A stretch of 64,000 bases of DNA from Neisseriaceae bacterium JH1-16. GTDB taxonomy: Bacteria; Pseudomonadota; Gammaproteobacteria; Burkholderiales; Chromobacteriaceae. The notes under the pieces are model-generated. The model had not been told where the DNA came from. It searched no databases and saw only the letters and a list, made by a program, of their open reading frames with translations. The stretch covers positions 186,001 through 250,000 of the forward strand of contig JAPDNP010000008.1 of NCBI GenBank assembly GCA_025989215.1. Direction: 5' to 3'. Of the stretch, positions 40,692 through 55,790 are shown in pieces (positions within the stretch are counted from its first letter, which is position 1; each line of letters begins with the position of its first letter). Both the position numbers and the translations under genes were made by a program.

Positions 40692-41486
40692 TCAAATGTG
40701 CACTTCGTCTTTCAGGTCTTCCCAGATCTGCCGGGACAGCTCGAGAAAGCGCGGCGAGTAGCGGATTTCCGAGGTGACGCGCGGGCGCGGCAGGTCGATC
40801 TCGACCACCCGCTTCACCGTGGCCGGCCCCTTGGTCAGCACGAACACCCGGTCGGCCAGCGCGATCGCCTCCTCCAGGTCGTGCGTGACGAACACCACCG
40901 ACGCGCCGTTGTCGCGCCACAGCGACAAGAGCTCGTCCTGCATCAGGGTGCGGGTCTGCACGTCGAGCGCCGAGAACGGCTCGTCCATCAACAGGATTTC
41001 CGGCTCGTTGATGAAGGTCTGCGCCAGCGCCACGCGCTTGCGCATGCCGCCGGACAGCTGGTGCGGGTAGTGGTGCTCGAAGCCGGCGAGGCCGACCCGG
41101 CGCACCCAGTCGCGCGCCTTGGCGAGCGCGTCGGGGCGCGCCGTGCCGCGGAACAGCGGACCGGCGGCGACGTTCTCGAGCACGCTCTTCCACGGGAATA
41201 CCGCGTCGCTCTGGAACACGAAGCCGATGCGCGGGTCGATGTCGGTGACCGGCTCGCCCCAGATCCGCACTTCGCCGTCCGACGGCTTGGCCAGGCCGGT
41301 GATCAGCGACAGCGTGGTCGACTTGCCGCAGCCGGTCGGCCCGACCACCGCGCAGAACTCGCCGCGTTTTACCGTCATGTTGAAATCGCGCAGCGCCATG
41401 ATCGCCTTGCCCTCCGGGCTGACGAAGCGGCGGCTGACGCGCGTGAGTTCGATCGCCGGCGAAGCGGCGTCGCGTGTGTTTTGCAT
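40692..41486 (-). CDS. NitT/TauT-family ABC ATPase
   Basis: 264 residues. Walker A GPTGCGKST, Q-loop VFQSDAVFPWKSV, signature LSGGMRKRVALAQTF, Walker B ILLMDEPFSALD, H-loop VTHDLEEAIALAD. It is the ATPase of the importer encoded around it, in the SsuB/TauB/NrtD group. The ATG at 41486 lies 60 bases after the binding-protein gene, with a purine-rich stretch upstream. Confidence 0.95.
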   Translation of the reverse strand: MQNTRDAASPAIELTRVSRRFVSPEGKAIMALRDFNMTVKRGEFCAVVGPTGCGKSTTLSLITGLAKPSDGEVRIWGEPVTDIDPRIGFVFQSDAVFPWKSVLENVAAGPLFRGTARPDALAKARDWVRRVGLAGFEHHYPHQLSGGMRKRVALAQTFINEPEILLMDEPFSALDVQTRTLMQDELLSLWRDNGASVVFVTHDLEEAIALADRVFVLTKGPATVKRVVEIDLPRPRVTSEIRYSPRFLELSRQIWEDLKDEVHI

Positions 41487-41546
41487 GGGTTCCCCCTCGG
41501 GACATCCGCCAGGCCCGGGCCGGCAACGACCCGGGCCGAACGCGGT

Positions 41547-42551
41547 TTACTTGGCGGCGTCGACGAAGGCGGTGGTGTAGGTCTTCGACAGGTCGATGCT
41601 CTTGCCGGCCAGGGCCTTGTCGAAGGTCGACAGCACCTTCAGCACGGTGGCCGGGCCGGACGCCGGCATCCGGCCGTCCGGGGTGTACATCACCTTGCCG
41701 CTGGCCAGCGCCTTCACGTACATGTCCTTGTCGCCGGCGTAGTAGTCCTTGGGCATCTTGGCCGCGATCTCGGCGGCGCTGTGCGTCTGGATCCACTTCA
41801 GCGTCTTCACCATCGCGTTGGCGAGCTTCTGCGTTTCCGCCCTGTGCTTCTCGACCCACGAGGTCTGCATGTAGAGGCACGACGACGGGTACAGGCCGCC
41901 CAGCACCTTCTGCGTGTCGCTCGGCGAGCGCATATCGACCAGCACCTTGGCCTCGTTGGTCTTCAACAGTCGCGAGATGGTCGGCTCGGTGGTCATGCCG
42001 CCGTCGATCTTGCCCTGCTGCAGCGCGGCGATGAAGGTATTGCCGGCGCCGACCGGCACCGAGGTGAACTCGCCGAGCTTGACGCCGTGCGAGACCGCCA
42101 GGTACTGGGTCAGGAAGTTGGTCGACGAGCCGAGCCCGGTGACGCCCAGGCTCTTGCCCTTGAAGTGGGCCGCCGACTTGATCTGGCCGGCCTTGCGGCT
42201 GTCGATCAGCAGCACCTCGCCCGGCGCCTGCAACAGCTGCACCACCGACTCCACCGCCTTGCCCTTGGCCTGCAGGTCGATGGTGTGGTCGTAGAAGCCC
42301 ACCACCCCCTGCACCGAGCCGGACAACAGCTCGTTTTCCGCCTCGACGCCGGCCGGCTCGGTCAACAGGTCGACGCTGAGCCCCTGCTCCTTGAAGTAGC
42401 CCAGTTGCTCGGTCAGTTTCACCGGCAGGTAGATCTGCTTCTCGATGCCGCCGATCATCAGGGTGATCTTGCCGTCGTCGGCGAAGGCCGGGTGGGCCAG
42501 GCCGGCCAGACAGGTCGCGGCCAGCACGCTGCCAATTACCGTTTTCTTCAT
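41547..42551 (-). CDS. NitT/TauT-family periplasmic binding protein
   Basis: 334 residues with a Sec signal (MKKTVIGSVLAATCLAGLAHPAFA). The NMT1/SsuA-like fold shows YLPVKLTEQLGYFKEQGLSVDLL, SGSVQGVVGFYDHTIDLQAKGK and KSLGVTGLGSSTNFLTQYLAVSHGV. Members bind sulfonates, nitrate, thiamine precursors or riboflavin; the ligand here cannot be read from sequence. It is first in a five-gene run: binding protein, ATPase, permease, response regulator, kinase. The adjacent two-component system probably senses the same ligand. Confidence 0.93.
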   Translation of the reverse strand: MKKTVIGSVLAATCLAGLAHPAFADDGKITLMIGGIEKQIYLPVKLTEQLGYFKEQGLSVDLLTEPAGVEAENELLSGSVQGVVGFYDHTIDLQAKGKAVESVVQLLQAPGEVLLIDSRKAGQIKSAAHFKGKSLGVTGLGSSTNFLTQYLAVSHGVKLGEFTSVPVGAGNTFIAALQQGKIDGGMTTEPTISRLLKTNEAKVLVDMRSPSDTQKVLGGLYPSSCLYMQTSWVEKHRAETQKLANAMVKTLKWIQTHSAAEIAAKMPKDYYAGDKDMYVKALASGKVMYTPDGRMPASGPATVLKVLSTFDKALAGKSIDLSKTYTTAFVDAAK

Positions 42552-42821
42552 GTCTCTTCTCCTTTGTACGGACTGCTTGTTCTATTGGGGGACAGGCCGG
42601 CGCGTCCTTACCGGCTGCAATGATGTTACGGCGGCCAAGCTGACAGTTTCCTGACGACGACCGCCTGTTTTGGTCCGCGTACACCTACTCGTTGGAAAAT
42701 GACACGGCGCCGGGCCGGCTTCGTTCGTTCACCTAACTGTCATGCTGCTGTCACCCCGCTGCAACGACGGCTACCTAGACTCGCTGCGTCCCTTACCGCA
42801 CCGTGTCGGAGCTACCCCACC

Positions 42822-44054
42822 ATGTCGCTAGACCTTGCCGCACCCGCCAGCCAGCAGATCGCCGGCCAGTTGTTGCAGCAGCCGCCCACCGTCCAGTCGG
42901 ACAACACCAATTACGACGTGCTCGCCCTGTTCAGCGAGGACATCGCCCTGGCAAACCTGCCGGTAGTCGACGCCGGCCGACCGGTCGGCATCATCAACCG
43001 CAACACCTTCATGAGCCAGCTGGCGCGGCCGTTTCACCGCGAGATCTTCGGCCGCCGCGCCTGCACCGCGTTCATGAACGCCGCCCCCTTGACCGTCGAC
43101 TACCACATGCCGCTGACCGAGCTGTCCTACCAGGTGCTGTCGGCCGGCGAGGCGGTGCTGTCGGACGGCTTCATGATCACCCGCGACGGCGACTATGTCG
43201 GCCTCGGCCAGGGCTTGCAGCTGGTGCAGGCACTGGCCGACCAGCAGGCCGAGAAGCACCGCCAGATGATGGAAAGCATCCACTACGCCAGCGTGATCCA
43301 GCAGTCGTTCCTGCAGAGCTCGCGCCGCGAGATGGCCGCGGCCTTGTCCGACTACAGCATGGTCTGGCAGCCGCGCGACATCGTCGGCGGCGACTACTAC
43401 TACTTCGTGCGCCGCCCGCACGGCTTCTTCGTCGCGGTGATCGACTGCACCGGCCACGGCGTGCCCGGCGCGTTCATGACGCTGATCATGGCGTCGGCGC
43501 TCAAGCAGGTGCTGACCACGCACGACCTGACCAATCCGGCCGAAATGCTCGGCGCGATCAACCGCCAGGTGAAGGAATCGCTCGGCCAGTTGGCCGAACA
43601 CGAGCAGGACGACGAGGACTTCGAGCTGCGCTCGGACGACGGCATGGACTGCGCGTTCTGCTGGTTCGACACCGACGCGTGCACCCTCACCTACGCCGGC
43701 GCCAAGACGCCGCTGTTCCTGCTGCGCCCGGGCGAGGAAGAGATCGACGGCTTCGACGGCAACAAGAAGGGCGTCGGTTACGTCGGCACCCCGCTCGATT
43801 ACAGCTGGGACAACCAGACCATCGCGCTGCCGCAGGGCAGCCGCGTCTACATCACCACCGACGGCATCATCGACCAGATCGGCGGCACCAAGCGCATCGC
43901 CTTCGGCAAGAAACGCTTCAAGGCCGCGCTGTTGTCGCGCCGCGACGCGCCGATGATCGAACAGCAGCGTGAGCTGCTCGCCCGCTTCGCCGACTGGCAG
44001 GGCGAAAACTCGCGCCGCGATGATGTCAGCCTGTTTGCCGTACACCTGCCTTGA
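42822..44054 (+). CDS. siaA: SiaA-like PP2C/SpoIIE phosphatase with CBS pair
   Basis: 410 residues. Residues about 1-150 resemble the CBS pair found before GGDEF domains: LPVVDAGRPVGIINRNTFMSQLARPFHREIFGRRACTAFM and LSDGFMITRDGDYVGLGQGLQL. Residues about 175-410 are a PP2C/SpoIIE phosphatase with the metal-binding Asp residues in DIVGGDYYYF, VIDCTGHGVPGAFMTLIM and TTDGIIDQ. In Pseudomonas SiaA is membrane-bound with HAMP; here there is no membrane segment. It should dephosphorylate SiaC. The ATG at 42822 has CGGAG upstream; a longer reading is rejected. The siaB gene starts 8 bases after the stop. Confidence 0.88.
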   Translation: MSLDLAAPASQQIAGQLLQQPPTVQSDNTNYDVLALFSEDIALANLPVVDAGRPVGIINRNTFMSQLARPFHREIFGRRACTAFMNAAPLTVDYHMPLTELSYQVLSAGEAVLSDGFMITRDGDYVGLGQGLQLVQALADQQAEKHRQMMESIHYASVIQQSFLQSSRREMAAALSDYSMVWQPRDIVGGDYYYFVRRPHGFFVAVIDCTGHGVPGAFMTLIMASALKQVLTTHDLTNPAEMLGAINRQVKESLGQLAEHEQDDEDFELRSDDGMDCAFCWFDTDACTLTYAGAKTPLFLLRPGEEEIDGFDGNKKGVGYVGTPLDYSWDNQTIALPQGSRVYITTDGIIDQIGGTKRIAFGKKRFKAALLSRRDAPMIEQQRELLARFADWQGENSRRDDVSLFAVHLP

Positions 44055-44062
44055 GACATGCC

Positions 44063-44617
44063 ATGGGTTTGACTGCTTTTCACCGTTTCCAGGACCTCGC
44101 CCGCGAAGAGAACGTGGTGTTCTATTACTCCGGCTACTTTTCACAGGCCGTGGTGTCCGCGATGGGCGACGCGCTGCGCCAGCGCCTCAACAGCTGCGAC
44201 GCGACCAACGTCACCCGCCGCAAGCTGTTCTCGGTGTTCGTCGAGATGGCGCAGAACGTCGTCCACTATTCGGCCGACCCGCTGACCGCCAGCGACGATG
44301 CCGACCACGAGCTGCGCCGCGGCGCGATGTGGGTCGGCGAGTGCGACAAGCACTTCTACGTGGTGTGCGCCAACCCGATCGCCCGCGAGGCGCAGCCCAA
44401 ACTGCTCGCCAAGCTCGAGCCGCTGCGCAGCATGACCCTCGATGAAATCAAGCAACGCTACAAGGAAAAACTGCGCTGTGAGGGCGAGGCCGGCAGCAAA
44501 GGCGCCGGCCTGGGCTTCCTCACCGTGGCGCGCGACGCGTCCGAACCGATCGAGTTCGACTTCGTCGACGAGCCCGACAGCGCCACCACCCTTTTCTATC
44601 TGAAAGCGACACTATAA
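44063..44617 (+). CDS. siaB: SiaB-like protein kinase (DUF6272)
   Basis: 184 residues of the SiaB family, a GHKL-related ATP-binding kinase that phosphorylates SiaC. Visible features: MAQNVVHYSAD (N-box-like), GSKGAGLGFLTVARDASEPIEFDF (G-box-like). It opposes the phosphatase encoded upstream in a partner-switching circuit. The ATG at 44063 is chosen over an in-frame TTG four codons earlier because it gives the family N-terminus (GLTAFHRFQD). Two bases separate its stop from siaC. Confidence 0.88.
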   Translation: MGLTAFHRFQDLAREENVVFYYSGYFSQAVVSAMGDALRQRLNSCDATNVTRRKLFSVFVEMAQNVVHYSADPLTASDDADHELRRGAMWVGECDKHFYVVCANPIAREAQPKLLAKLEPLRSMTLDEIKQRYKEKLRCEGEAGSKGAGLGFLTVARDASEPIEFDFVDEPDSATTLFYLKATL

Positions 44618-44619
44618 CT

Positions 44620-45003
44620 ATGCAGAACGTCTATCTAGCCGCCACCTCCGCCACCCCCGAAGTCGACTTCCGTTTCGACGCCCACCGCCTGTCGCTGAAG
44701 GGCGAGAGCTACCCGGAAAACGCCCAGGCGTTTTACGGCCCGCTGCTCGACGCGGCCAGCGCCTATCTGGCCGGCAGCCGCGGCGCCGACATCCGCATTG
44801 ACGTGCAGCTCGCCTACTTCAACAGCTCCAGCACCAAGCTCCTGATGAGCCTGTTCGAGCTGTTCAACCAGGCGGCGCTGTCCGGCAACCATGTGGTGGT
44901 CAACTGGTTCCACGACGAAGAAGACGACACCATCCTCGAGTTCGGTGAAGAGATCGCCGAGGACTATCCGGCACTCGAGCTGTTGACCCAGGCGCTGGTC
45001 TAG
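44620..45003 (+). CDS. siaC: SiaC-like regulatory phosphoprotein (DUF1987)
   Basis: 127 residues. The DUF1987 family: TPEVDFRFDAHRLSLKGESYPENAQAFYGPLL and DVQLAYFNSSSTKLLMSLFELF. In Pseudomonas SiaC binds and activates the diguanylate cyclase SiaD when unphosphorylated; the phospho-residue lies in a stretch equivalent to FNSSSTK (67-73 here). No siaD follows; the next GGDEF gene is at 51148. Output is therefore unknown. Start ATG at 44620. Confidence 0.9.
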   Translation: MQNVYLAATSATPEVDFRFDAHRLSLKGESYPENAQAFYGPLLDAASAYLAGSRGADIRIDVQLAYFNSSSTKLLMSLFELFNQAALSGNHVVVNWFHDEEDDTILEFGEEIAEDYPALELLTQALV

Positions 45004-51147: not shown

Positions 51148-52071
51148 ATGAGCCAGTCCCCCGCCCTCTCCCTGCTATTCGTCGAGCTGCGTCGCGGCGC
51201 GCTGTCTGCGTCATGGCGTAGGACGCTGACCGGCCTGATTGCGTTCGCCCAGCTGGCGACGCTGCTCGGCCATCTGTACAACCTGCCGAGCCTGGCCGAA
51301 CCGTTCAGCGCGCCGCTGTCGGTGCTGGCCGAGGTCGGCATCTACCTGATGGTGCTGCTGATCCTGATCGCGATGCAGCCGCTCAGCTTCCTGCCCTACA
51401 CCTACAGCCTGCTGACGGCCGGTCTCGGCCTGTGGCTGGAGACGGCGTTGATCGACGTGCTCGACAAGGTGCTGGTCCAGCCAAGCTGGATCTCGGGTGC
51501 CGGCCGCGACTGGCTCAGGCTGTCCGGGCTGCTGCTGGTCACGCTCGGCGTGTTCCGCCTGGTGCGCCAGTTGCGCGGCCAGATGCAGCGGCTGAACGAG
51601 CTGGCGACCCTCGACGAGCTGACCCGGCTGTACAACCGCCGCTACCTGCTGGCCCAGGCGCAGCGCTGGCTCAAACCCGGCGCCAGCGGCCTGACCCTGA
51701 TCATGTTCGACATCGACCGCTTCAAGCAGGTGAACGACAACTTCGGCCACGCGGTCGGCGACCAGACGCTGCAGGACGTGACCCGGCTGGTCGGCATGGA
51801 ACTGCCGCCCGGCGCGCTGCTCGGCCGACTCGGCGGCGAGGAGTTCGCCATCCTCTTGCCCAGCTGGGATGTCGAGGCGGGGCGCAGCTTGGCCGAACAG
51901 TGCCGCGTCCGGCTCGCCGACTCGACTACCGCCGCCGGAACCATCACCGCCAGCTTCGGCGTGACCGGCCAGCAGCCTGCCGATGCGTCGTTCGAGGCAT
52001 TGCTGCGCCGTGCCGACAGGGGTTTGTACGATGCCAAGGACGCCGGTCGCAACCGGGTATGCATCGCATGA
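51148..52071 (+). CDS. Membrane diguanylate cyclase (GGDEF)
   Basis: 307 residues. Four hydrophobic segments at about 27-46, 62-82, 84-104 and 125-138, then a GGDEF domain (about 150-306). The active site is GRLGGEEFAILLP (GGEEF at 229-233), with MFDIDRFKQVNDNFGHAVGD for metal and nucleotide binding, so c-di-GMP synthesis is expected. The allosteric inhibitory RxxD is absent: the residues five before the motif are PPGA-like. Start ATG at 51148. It is the only GGDEF gene in the window, and the nearby SiaABC set lacks its own. Confidence 0.93.
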   Translation: MSQSPALSLLFVELRRGALSASWRRTLTGLIAFAQLATLLGHLYNLPSLAEPFSAPLSVLAEVGIYLMVLLILIAMQPLSFLPYTYSLLTAGLGLWLETALIDVLDKVLVQPSWISGAGRDWLRLSGLLLVTLGVFRLVRQLRGQMQRLNELATLDELTRLYNRRYLLAQAQRWLKPGASGLTLIMFDIDRFKQVNDNFGHAVGDQTLQDVTRLVGMELPPGALLGRLGGEEFAILLPSWDVEAGRSLAEQCRVRLADSTTAAGTITASFGVTGQQPADASFEALLRRADRGLYDAKDAGRNRVCIA

Positions 52072-54371: not shown

Positions 54372-55790
54372 ATGCCGACACCTCCCCGCTTCGACCAGTT
54401 CTACGCCGAGGGCAAGGCCCTGCGCACCGCCTGCCCGCGCGAGGCGCAAGCCGAGCTGCCCAAGACCAGGCACCGCGACCCGATCGCGTTGCTGCAGGAG
54501 AGCAGCGCCGGCCGGGTGCCGGCGCTGGTCCCGGTGCGCTACGGACGCATGCTGGCCTCGCCGTTCGCCTTCTTCCGCGGCATCGCCCTGCTGCAGGCCT
54601 CCGACCTGGCCCAGACCCCGTCCAGCGGCGAAACCGTGCCGGCCTGCGGCGACGCGCACCTGATGAATTTCGGCTTCTTTGCCTCGCCAGAGCGCAACCT
54701 GCTGTTCGACATCAACGACTTCGACGAGACCCACCCGGCGCCGTGGGAGTGGGACGTGAAACGGCTGGCGGTCAGCCTGGTGCTGGCGGCGCGCGAACTG
54801 GGCTTTAGCGAGCCACAGGCGAAGAAAGTGGTCGAGGATGCCACCCTGTCCTATCAGGTGCATATGCAGAAGCTGGCGCAGATGAGCACGCTCGACGTCT
54901 GGTACCGCCGCCTCACCCTCGACGATATGGCCAGCGCCGCCGGCAATAACGATGCCCTGCAGCGCCGCGTCGCCCGGGTGGCCGAGCGCGCCCGAAACCG
55001 CACCCACGACCGCCTGCTGCCGAAGATCACCGAAATCGACAATGGCGAGCGCCGCCTGAAGGACAACCCGCCGATGCTGTTCCACGTCCACGAGGGCGGC
55101 ACCCTGCTGCCCGACGACGACCATTGGCTCTGCACCGGCGACTGGCAGGGCTTGCTCGAACCGATGTTCAAGAGCTATCGCAGCACGCTGAAGGAAGACC
55201 GGATGGCGCTGCTCGACCGCTTCCGCGCCACCGACCTCGCCTTCAAGGTGGTCGGCGTCGGCAGCGTCGGCACCCGCTGCCTAGTGGCGCTGATGGAGGA
55301 CGACTACGCGCAGCCCTTGTTCCTGCAGATCAAGGAAGCGCGCCCGTCGGTGCTGGAACGCTACACCGCCAAGAACAAACACCAGCATCAGGGCAAGCGG
55401 GTAGTGTTCGGCCAACGGCTGATGCAGGCGGCCAGCGACCTGTTCCTGGGCTGGACCACCGGGCCGACCGGGCGACACTTCTATGTGCGCCAGCTGCGCG
55501 ACATGAAAATTTCCGCCACGCTGGAAACCTTCGACCTCGACGCCTTGTCAGCCTATGGCGAGGCCTGCGCCTGGACGCTGGCGCGCGCCCATGCCAAGGC
55601 CGGCGGGCGCAGCGCCCAGCTGGCCGGCTATCTGGGCAAGGGCACCAAGTTCGCCGAGGCGATCGCCCGCTATGCGCTGGCCTATGCCGACCAGGTCGAA
55701 GCCGATTATGAGACGTTCCGCGGCGCAGTACGCGCCGGCAAGCTGCCGGTGGAAACCCCCGAGGAGCTGCGTCAAAGCTACACCCCCTAA
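54372..55790 (+). CDS. DUF2252 family protein
   Basis: 472 residues. Recognised by the DUF2252 core: FFRGIALLQASDL, CGDAHLMNFGFFASPERNLLFDINDFDETHPAPWEWDVKRLAVSL, VGVGSVGTRCLVALMEDD and FLQIKEARPSVLE. The domain resembles aminoglycoside-kinase-like folds (the FDINDFDE segment looks like a metal-binding loop), but activity is not established. Start ATG at 54372 with GAGAGAGAG upstream. Its TAA stop is directly followed by a family A element. Confidence 0.88.
   Translation: MPTPPRFDQFYAEGKALRTACPREAQAELPKTRHRDPIALLQESSAGRVPALVPVRYGRMLASPFAFFRGIALLQASDLAQTPSSGETVPACGDAHLMNFGFFASPERNLLFDINDFDETHPAPWEWDVKRLAVSLVLAARELGFSEPQAKKVVEDATLSYQVHMQKLAQMSTLDVWYRRLTLDDMASAAGNNDALQRRVARVAERARNRTHDRLLPKITEIDNGERRLKDNPPMLFHVHEGGTLLPDDDHWLCTGDWQGLLEPMFKSYRSTLKEDRMALLDRFRATDLAFKVVGVGSVGTRCLVALMEDDYAQPLFLQIKEARPSVLERYTAKNKHQHQGKRVVFGQRLMQAASDLFLGWTTGPTGRHFYVRQLRDMKISATLETFDLDALSAYGEACAWTLARAHAKAGGRSAQLAGYLGKGTKFAEAIARYALAYADQVEADYETFRGAVRAGKLPVETPEELRQSYTP

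Follow-up and report, generated by a model that had tools for sequence, protein, structure and literature searches.

The window analysed here, a stretch of 64,000 nucleotides from contig JAPDNP010000008.1 of Neisseriaceae bacterium JH1-16, carries at positions 42822-45003 a tight operon encoding a phosphatase with a CBS pair and a PP2C domain, a SiaB-family kinase and a SiaC-family phosphoprotein (Table 1). The intergenic gaps are 8 bp between siaA and siaB and 2 bp between siaB and siaC, and matches in Pfam and NCBIfam (SpoIIE and CBS, DUF6272/SiaB_fam_kinase, SiaC) bear out the preliminary description, which had read these tightly linked genes as a SiaABC-type switch. An alternative in-frame ATG of the siaA-like gene lies at 42699, with homologues favoring the start at 42822, and a scan of the locus for promoters and terminators returned nothing exceeding chance. 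All three proteins fall under the NCBIfam equivalog cut-offs (SiaA 195 of 700 bits, SiaB 83 of 225, SiaC 85.5 of 150) and are therefore to be seen as relatives of the Pseudomonas aeruginosa proteins, not as orthologs in the narrow sense. The next gene downstream of siaC is proA, in agreement with the earlier claim that no cyclase follows. NMT1/SsuA-like ABC importer genes lie upstream of and divergent from the switch on the minus strand (40692-42551), and a DUF2252 gene (54372-55787, E 1.2e-152) keeps its synteny with the switch in 8 loci. Across loci of the same type, proA recurs in 11 and a lipoprotein-like gene in 9; these neighbors and the DUF2252 gene were considered as partners of the switch and set aside, as they seem to be part of the chromosomal background and to be transcribed in units of their own.

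Table 1. Features of the CBS-type SiaABC locus (window positions).
Feature	Position	Strand	Product or basis
siaA-like gene	42822..44054	+	Soluble CBS-pair + PP2C (SpoIIE-type) phosphatase, 410 aa
CBS pair (residues 9-130), EAL-CBS-GGDEF type	42846..43211	+	AF2, Foldseek/VIA matches, CBS profile
44-residue helix (residues 131-174), linker between CBS pair and PP2C	43212..43343	+	DSSP on AF2 model
PP2C catalytic domain of siaA-like gene	43353..44051	+	Invariant columns, 6k4e alignment, Foldseek
siaB-like gene, SiaB-family (DUF6272, GHKL-type) protein kinase, 184 aa	44063..44617	+	NF038262, PF19788
SiaB E61 codon, kept	44243-44245	+	Catalytic E61 after PMC7647112
siaC-like gene, SiaC-family (PF09345, STAS-like) phosphoprotein, 127 aa	44620..45003	+	PF09345, phmmer
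Ser69 codon of SiaC, putative phosphosite	44824..44826	+	Alignment of 41 SiaC sequences

The siaA-like protein matches the SpoIIE/PP2C (6.2e-23) and CBS (8.2e-6) families of Pfam, with one CBS repeat, the first, above the Pfam cut-off. Its AlphaFold model (mean pLDDT 89.7) places two CBS repeats ahead of a 44-residue helix and the PP2C domain; both repeats have the CBS fold, as in a CBS pair (Bateman module), and the CBS part modeled alone reached a pLDDT of 89.6. A hydropathy scan found no transmembrane segment in this protein, as against two in the class I SiaA of relatives (see below), so that a soluble CBS phosphatase does take the place of the transmembrane/HAMP type, as had been proposed. 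The CBS pair is also, as first described, of the kind joined to GGDEF domains: elsewhere in the genome its profile matches solely a 599-aa EAL-CBS-GGDEF protein (E 6.6e-37). Among structures, the top match of the pair is AcuB with bound nucleotides (Z 15.7, rmsd 2.8 Å, 129 residues; Foldseek/VIA), and the fold resembles that of AMP/ADP/ATP-binding CBS pairs. Nucleotide-binding CBS repeats usually carry one motif each, G-x-x-[ST]-x-x-D, with a ribose-binding Asp. Inspected by eye, the corresponding sites read GIINRNT (56-62) and GLGQGLQ (127-133), and given that the usual Asp is missing from both repeats, the energy sensing first suggested is weakened and should not be assumed. Residues 139-406 align to the SiaA-PP2C of P. 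aeruginosa (6k4e, 4.4e-42; Foldseek 1.1e-26, TM(target) 0.94), and D191, D208, G211, D347, G348, D351 and D400/D401 are kept, as judged from invariant profile columns and the 6k4e alignment. In PPM phosphatases of the RsbU type, the sensor signal passes to PP2C via a coiled-coil helical linker (PMC12143880); by analogy, the 44-residue helix is a putative coiled-coil transmission element and would fit such a mechanism. The window protein resembles RsbU/RsbP/RssB-type phosphatases in that an N-terminal sensor, which can be exchanged, is connected with PP2C through a dimeric linker of helices (PMC12143880), but differs in having a CBS pair as sensor and a SiaC-type rather than RsbV-type substrate.

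The kinase and the phosphoprotein are the only SiaB and SiaC of this genome. SiaB scores 194 bits against SiaB_fam_kinase NF038262 (cut-off 85) and 1.4e-38 against DUF6272 (PF19788), while SiaC matches PF09345 (2.7e-39) and, by phmmer, P. aeruginosa SiaC (6kko, 2.2e-19). P. aeruginosa SiaB is a partner-switch kinase with catalytic E61 (PMC7647112), and the residues expected of a SiaABC module are all present in the window: E61 in SiaB, D191/D208/D347/D400/401 in PP2C and the phospho-acceptor Ser69 in SiaC. By alignment, Ser69 is the equivalent of the phosphorylated Thr68 in P. aeruginosa SiaC, and among 41 aligned sequences this position is Thr in all 10 of class I and Ser in all 30 of the CBS type. 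The docking face of the window SiaC is largely common to the SiaC of CBS-type systems with a docking cyclase (Y65, N67, E110 and D114 are kept), and could still bind a SiaD-like helix. Position 75 is Phe in 10/10 CBS-type SiaC with an adjacent cyclase and variable in the window's lineage, which fits a re-targeting of SiaC without showing it.

SiaC of P. aeruginosa binds two motifs on the long N-terminal stalk of the cyclase SiaD and thereby activates it, an activation blocked by phosphorylation of Thr68 (PMC8457831). A SiaD was said at the outset to be missing here, and a siaD homolog elsewhere in the genome, the finding that would have spoken against this, was sought with the SiaD cut-off and three stalk profiles, all with negative outcome. 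None of the genome's 26 GGDEF matches lies above the SiaD equivalog cut-off. Stalk profile A2, built from class I relatives with repeats reading ..RISDRYQ.., finds E <= 1e-9 in 11/11 class I genomes searched, and its best match in the genome of the window is only 0.27; profile A6, for which docking proteins were taken from CBS-type systems and from more distant ones, gave no match there at E<=1. The combined docking profile A8 reaches E <= 2e-7 in every class I genome of the family (16/16), as opposed to a best E of only 1.1 across the 12/12 family genomes in which the CBS type stands alone, and no weak matches recur across these. Inspected singly, 0/26 of the GGDEF proteins in the genome have a docking helix. 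These profiles would pass over a target whose docking helix has diverged strongly or whose contact with SiaC is confined to one short site. The genome's best full-length match to the SiaD profile (L052, on G000:C12) spans most of the model; it is a WspR-like REC-GGDEF protein directly behind a CheB-type gene and was rejected as SiaD. An unlinked target is nonetheless possible, and a profile would detect one, since A6 finds the docking cyclase of genome G236 (E 3.8e-23), outside its training set and 1.5 Mb from siaC. In that genome the CBS-SiaABC and the docking diguanylate cyclase (L273, L274) lie on the same contig.

Two classes of locus are evident when the genome of the window is compared with 60 relatives. 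SiaC is present in 29 of these 61 genomes, either in class I loci, with transmembrane SiaA, SiaB, SiaC and an adjacent SiaD, or in class II loci, which consist of CBS-PP2C, SiaB and SiaC; SiaD never lies directly behind these in this family. Both classes occur together in a congener (G001) and in three further genomes (G003, G022, G033). In 12 family genomes class II stands alone, and in none of them was a docking protein found. A tree of SiaB and SiaC separates the two classes with full support and places the window among 12 class II family rows that lack a docking gene. Between congeners, omega is 0.16-0.17 for siaABC (0.17 for the siaA-like gene, 0.16 for siaC), which indicates that the module is maintained. 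CBS-type SiaABC is thus a separate, conserved lineage under purifying selection.

In a scan of 84,980 species genomes, full-length CBS-SiaA was found in Janthinobacterium, Acidovorax, Cupriavidus, Herbaspirillum, Paraburkholderia, Duganella, Pseudomonas gingeri, P. batumici and Phytobacter, where in each case the gene immediately behind SiaC encodes a soluble GGDEF protein, and also in Vogesella and in Methylomonas, Methylovulum and Rhodocyclales MAGs, where no GGDEF gene follows SiaC. On the tree, the state of having no adjacent docking gene requires five changes, at least 4 of them forced by well supported branches. Since CBS-SiaA is followed by a docking cyclase in Janthinobacterium, Cupriavidus and Paraburkholderia, the CBS sensor and the loss of SiaD are separable, and CBS-SiaA does not imply the absence of SiaD.

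The proteins carrying a docking helix are diverse. Across 80 loci, such a protein was present in 23/40 with SiaC and in 0/40 without, almost always with the helix near the N-terminus and inside the gene cluster. When 300 genomes of the order were searched, 15 strong docking matches came up, 14 of them in SiaC-bearing genomes (Fisher 2e-11); some of these proteins closely resemble training rows of the profile. By Pfam, the helix is joined, in addition to GGDEF, to class III nucleotide cyclases at six loci next to SiaC (L130:3020-4066, L138:4755-5810, L150:9719-12939, L168:7248-8501, L230:1495-2550, L344:1276-2541); to HD-GYP in L136 (9811-10656); to GAF-HD-GYP in L133 (3018-5081) and most of the scanned proteins of L336-L363; to GGDEF-HD-GYP in L129 (8824-10422) and L146 (8792-10429); to PAS-GGDEF in L171, with L149 alike by sequence; and to histidine kinases, with or without REC and Hpt, in L137 (436-2982), L139 (6024-6989) and L150. 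At L150 a single SiaC is followed by two docking proteins in a row, the cyclase and a hybrid histidine kinase, and the HD-GYP, GAF-HD-GYP, GGDEF-HD-GYP and histidine-kinase fusions include cases from Paenibacillus and Desulfotruncus. The phylum search returned 30 docking loci, of which 8 (L336, L338, L339, L340, L346, L349, L350, L354) lack SiaC within 1.5 kb; their proteins are candidate unlinked SiaC targets or reflect contig-end effects, and the four that were scanned (L336, L338, L346, L349) are GAF-HD-GYP proteins. Authors writing in eLife have proposed that DUF1987 proteins modulate adjacent proteins; no paper describing docking outputs other than GGDEF was found in the literature. From the shared motif and its position, SiaC would be expected to bind the docking helices of these outputs as well, and it looks like a general adaptor, the helix being transferable. 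A tentative extension, to which we give somewhat less than even credence, is that SiaC would be agnostic to its output (GGDEF, HD-GYP, class III cyclase or histidine kinase), with the effector of the window's switch lying outside c-di-GMP synthesis and offering a docking site of a new kind.

Taken together, we consider it reasonably probable that the locus is a complete cytosolic SiaABC switch, gated by its CBS pair and re-targeted in trans to a protein without a SiaD-type docking helix. The CBS pair, in place of the membrane/HAMP sensor, would respond to an intracellular ligand or state, and the 44-residue helix, probably dimeric, would pass the change to the PP2C domain. Going by homology and the kept catalytic residues, the phosphatase would take the phosphate off Ser69 of SiaC and SiaB would restore it. 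Unphosphorylated SiaC would then bind and switch an effector encoded elsewhere, presumably one other than a SiaD-type diguanylate cyclase and devoid of the N-terminal helix that marks SiaC partners in other genomes. The parts themselves are backed by sequence, conservation and predicted structure: the analysis shows which genes and domains are present, that they are conserved, and that SiaD and recognizable docking-helix proteins are missing. We infer the direction of signal flow, the phosphorylation of Ser69 and the existence of a target in trans, with the order of events taken from the P. aeruginosa system (PMC7647112, PMC8457831). That the effector acts in trans and has no helix of the usual kind is arrived at by elimination, and the re-targeting is thereby an argument from absence.

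The preliminary description had named a membrane-anchored GGDEF protein with a GGEEF motif (51148-52071) as a possible target of SiaC. Its gene does share the strand of the switch, at a distance of 6 kb downstream, and the congener G001 has the ortholog ~1.6 kb from siaC. However, proA, a two-component system, an MFS gene and other genes intervene in the window, the helix preceding the GGDEF domain has no docking motif, and the membrane sensor domain is genus-specific bar two matches, both weak and both in G024, while the switch itself occurs in many other genera. With 65% identity between congeners as opposed to 90-93% for the switch, and an omega of 0.45 against 0.16, the gene also evolves about three times faster, and the proposal has become highly improbable. 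SiaC might instead control c-di-GMP through an ordinary GGDEF or EAL-GGDEF protein, most plausibly the EAL-CBS-GGDEF protein at G000:C1:140,044, with both arms reading one signal. The genome has 26 GGDEF matches, the CBS pairs of this protein and of the phosphatase match the same profile, and in G219 one EAL-CBS-GGDEF gene comes directly after the CBS-SiaABC genes and another lies at their flank. This is the only locus with such an arrangement, though, and the absence of a docking helix from all 26 proteins tells against this reading, as does the equal presence of EAL-CBS-GGDEF proteins in family genomes that have no SiaC or class I only; we regard it as unlikely. As a general partner of SiaC, the EAL-CBS-GGDEF protein was rejected on its presence without SiaC. 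At L269:2129-8338, CBS-SiaABC has EAL-CBS-GGDEF genes on both sides, with CBS pairs of the same type as in the phosphatase.

Output could also run via SiaB, as an RsbW-type anti-factor that keeps a protein sequestered until unphosphorylated SiaC titrates SiaB away. SiaB belongs to the partner-switch kinases (PMC7647112), and a SiaC without effector would need no docking helix; yet a SiaB target is reported in none of the SiaABC systems in the literature found, and recognizable partner genes beside SiaC carry the SiaC-docking helix, making this quite unlikely. That a target with a docking helix exists in the genome and was missed, through an assembly gap or strong divergence, draws on the 18 contigs of the assembly, the loose first look of the profile searches and the kept docking face of SiaC. 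We give it little credence, as 12/12 class-II-only family genomes gave no match, among them several assembled as a single contig (G012, G020, G030, G032), while positive controls from the same family were all detected. A decaying remnant left after the loss of siaD would account for the missing downstream gene, but is contradicted by an omega of 0.16-0.17 in all three genes and by a switch that is intact in many genera and kept beside proA in 11 loci; this is scarcely conceivable. The re-targeted cytosolic switch remains the reading that we prefer.

Compared with SiaABCD of P. aeruginosa (PA0172-PA0169), the locus has the same PP2C phosphatase, SiaB-family kinase and SiaC in identical gene order, with the catalytic residues, the position of the SiaC phosphosite and the SiaC docking face in common. 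It differs in that P. aeruginosa SiaA has two transmembrane segments and a HAMP domain where the window protein has a CBS pair and a helix, in the Ser that replaces Thr as the phosphosite, and in SiaD, which in P. aeruginosa bears two SiaC-docking stalk repeats and in the genome of the window is found neither adjacent nor elsewhere. Likeness is also seen to the CBS-SiaABC of Janthinobacterium, Acidovorax, Cupriavidus, Paraburkholderia, Herbaspirillum and Pseudomonas gingeri, in the CBS-PP2C protein (44-48% identity), the Ser phosphosite and the clade; in the Janthinobacterium/Cupriavidus-type systems, unlike in the window, siaC is directly followed by the gene of a soluble GGDEF protein whose N-terminus bears a docking helix. 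No paper was found on CBS-SiaABC with a docking diguanylate cyclase (Janthinobacterium, Cupriavidus etc.). A STAS-like phosphoprotein as the output of a partner switch is also known, as cited in PMC8457831, from HsbRAD and BgrUVWR, which act on diguanylate cyclases; theirs is a plain STAS protein, as opposed to the PF09345 phosphoprotein of the window, for which no cyclase was found.

The SiaABC systems studied in the literature found all have a single diguanylate cyclase and biofilm formation as their output, and neither a CBS-type SiaA nor a SiaC target other than a cyclase is described in that literature, mostly outside subscription journals. The window and its relatives add a second SiaABC lineage, conserved across a bacterial family, in which the sensor is a soluble CBS pair, the phosphosite is Ser and SiaD is missing altogether. 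Among its relatives, the same switch is suggested to be wired to several kinds of output enzyme, where the docking helix would connect SiaC with the breakdown of cyclic di-GMP, with class III nucleotide cyclases and with two-component signaling. The signature of this helix marks likely SiaC targets in whole genomes, and so turns what an orphan SiaC controls into a directly testable question. Two lone SiaC-family proteins (L046:6947-7360, L047:6962-7456) occur without SiaA or SiaB nearby, in genomes that also carry class I SiaABCD; both have Ala at the phosphosite, with Asp on either side.
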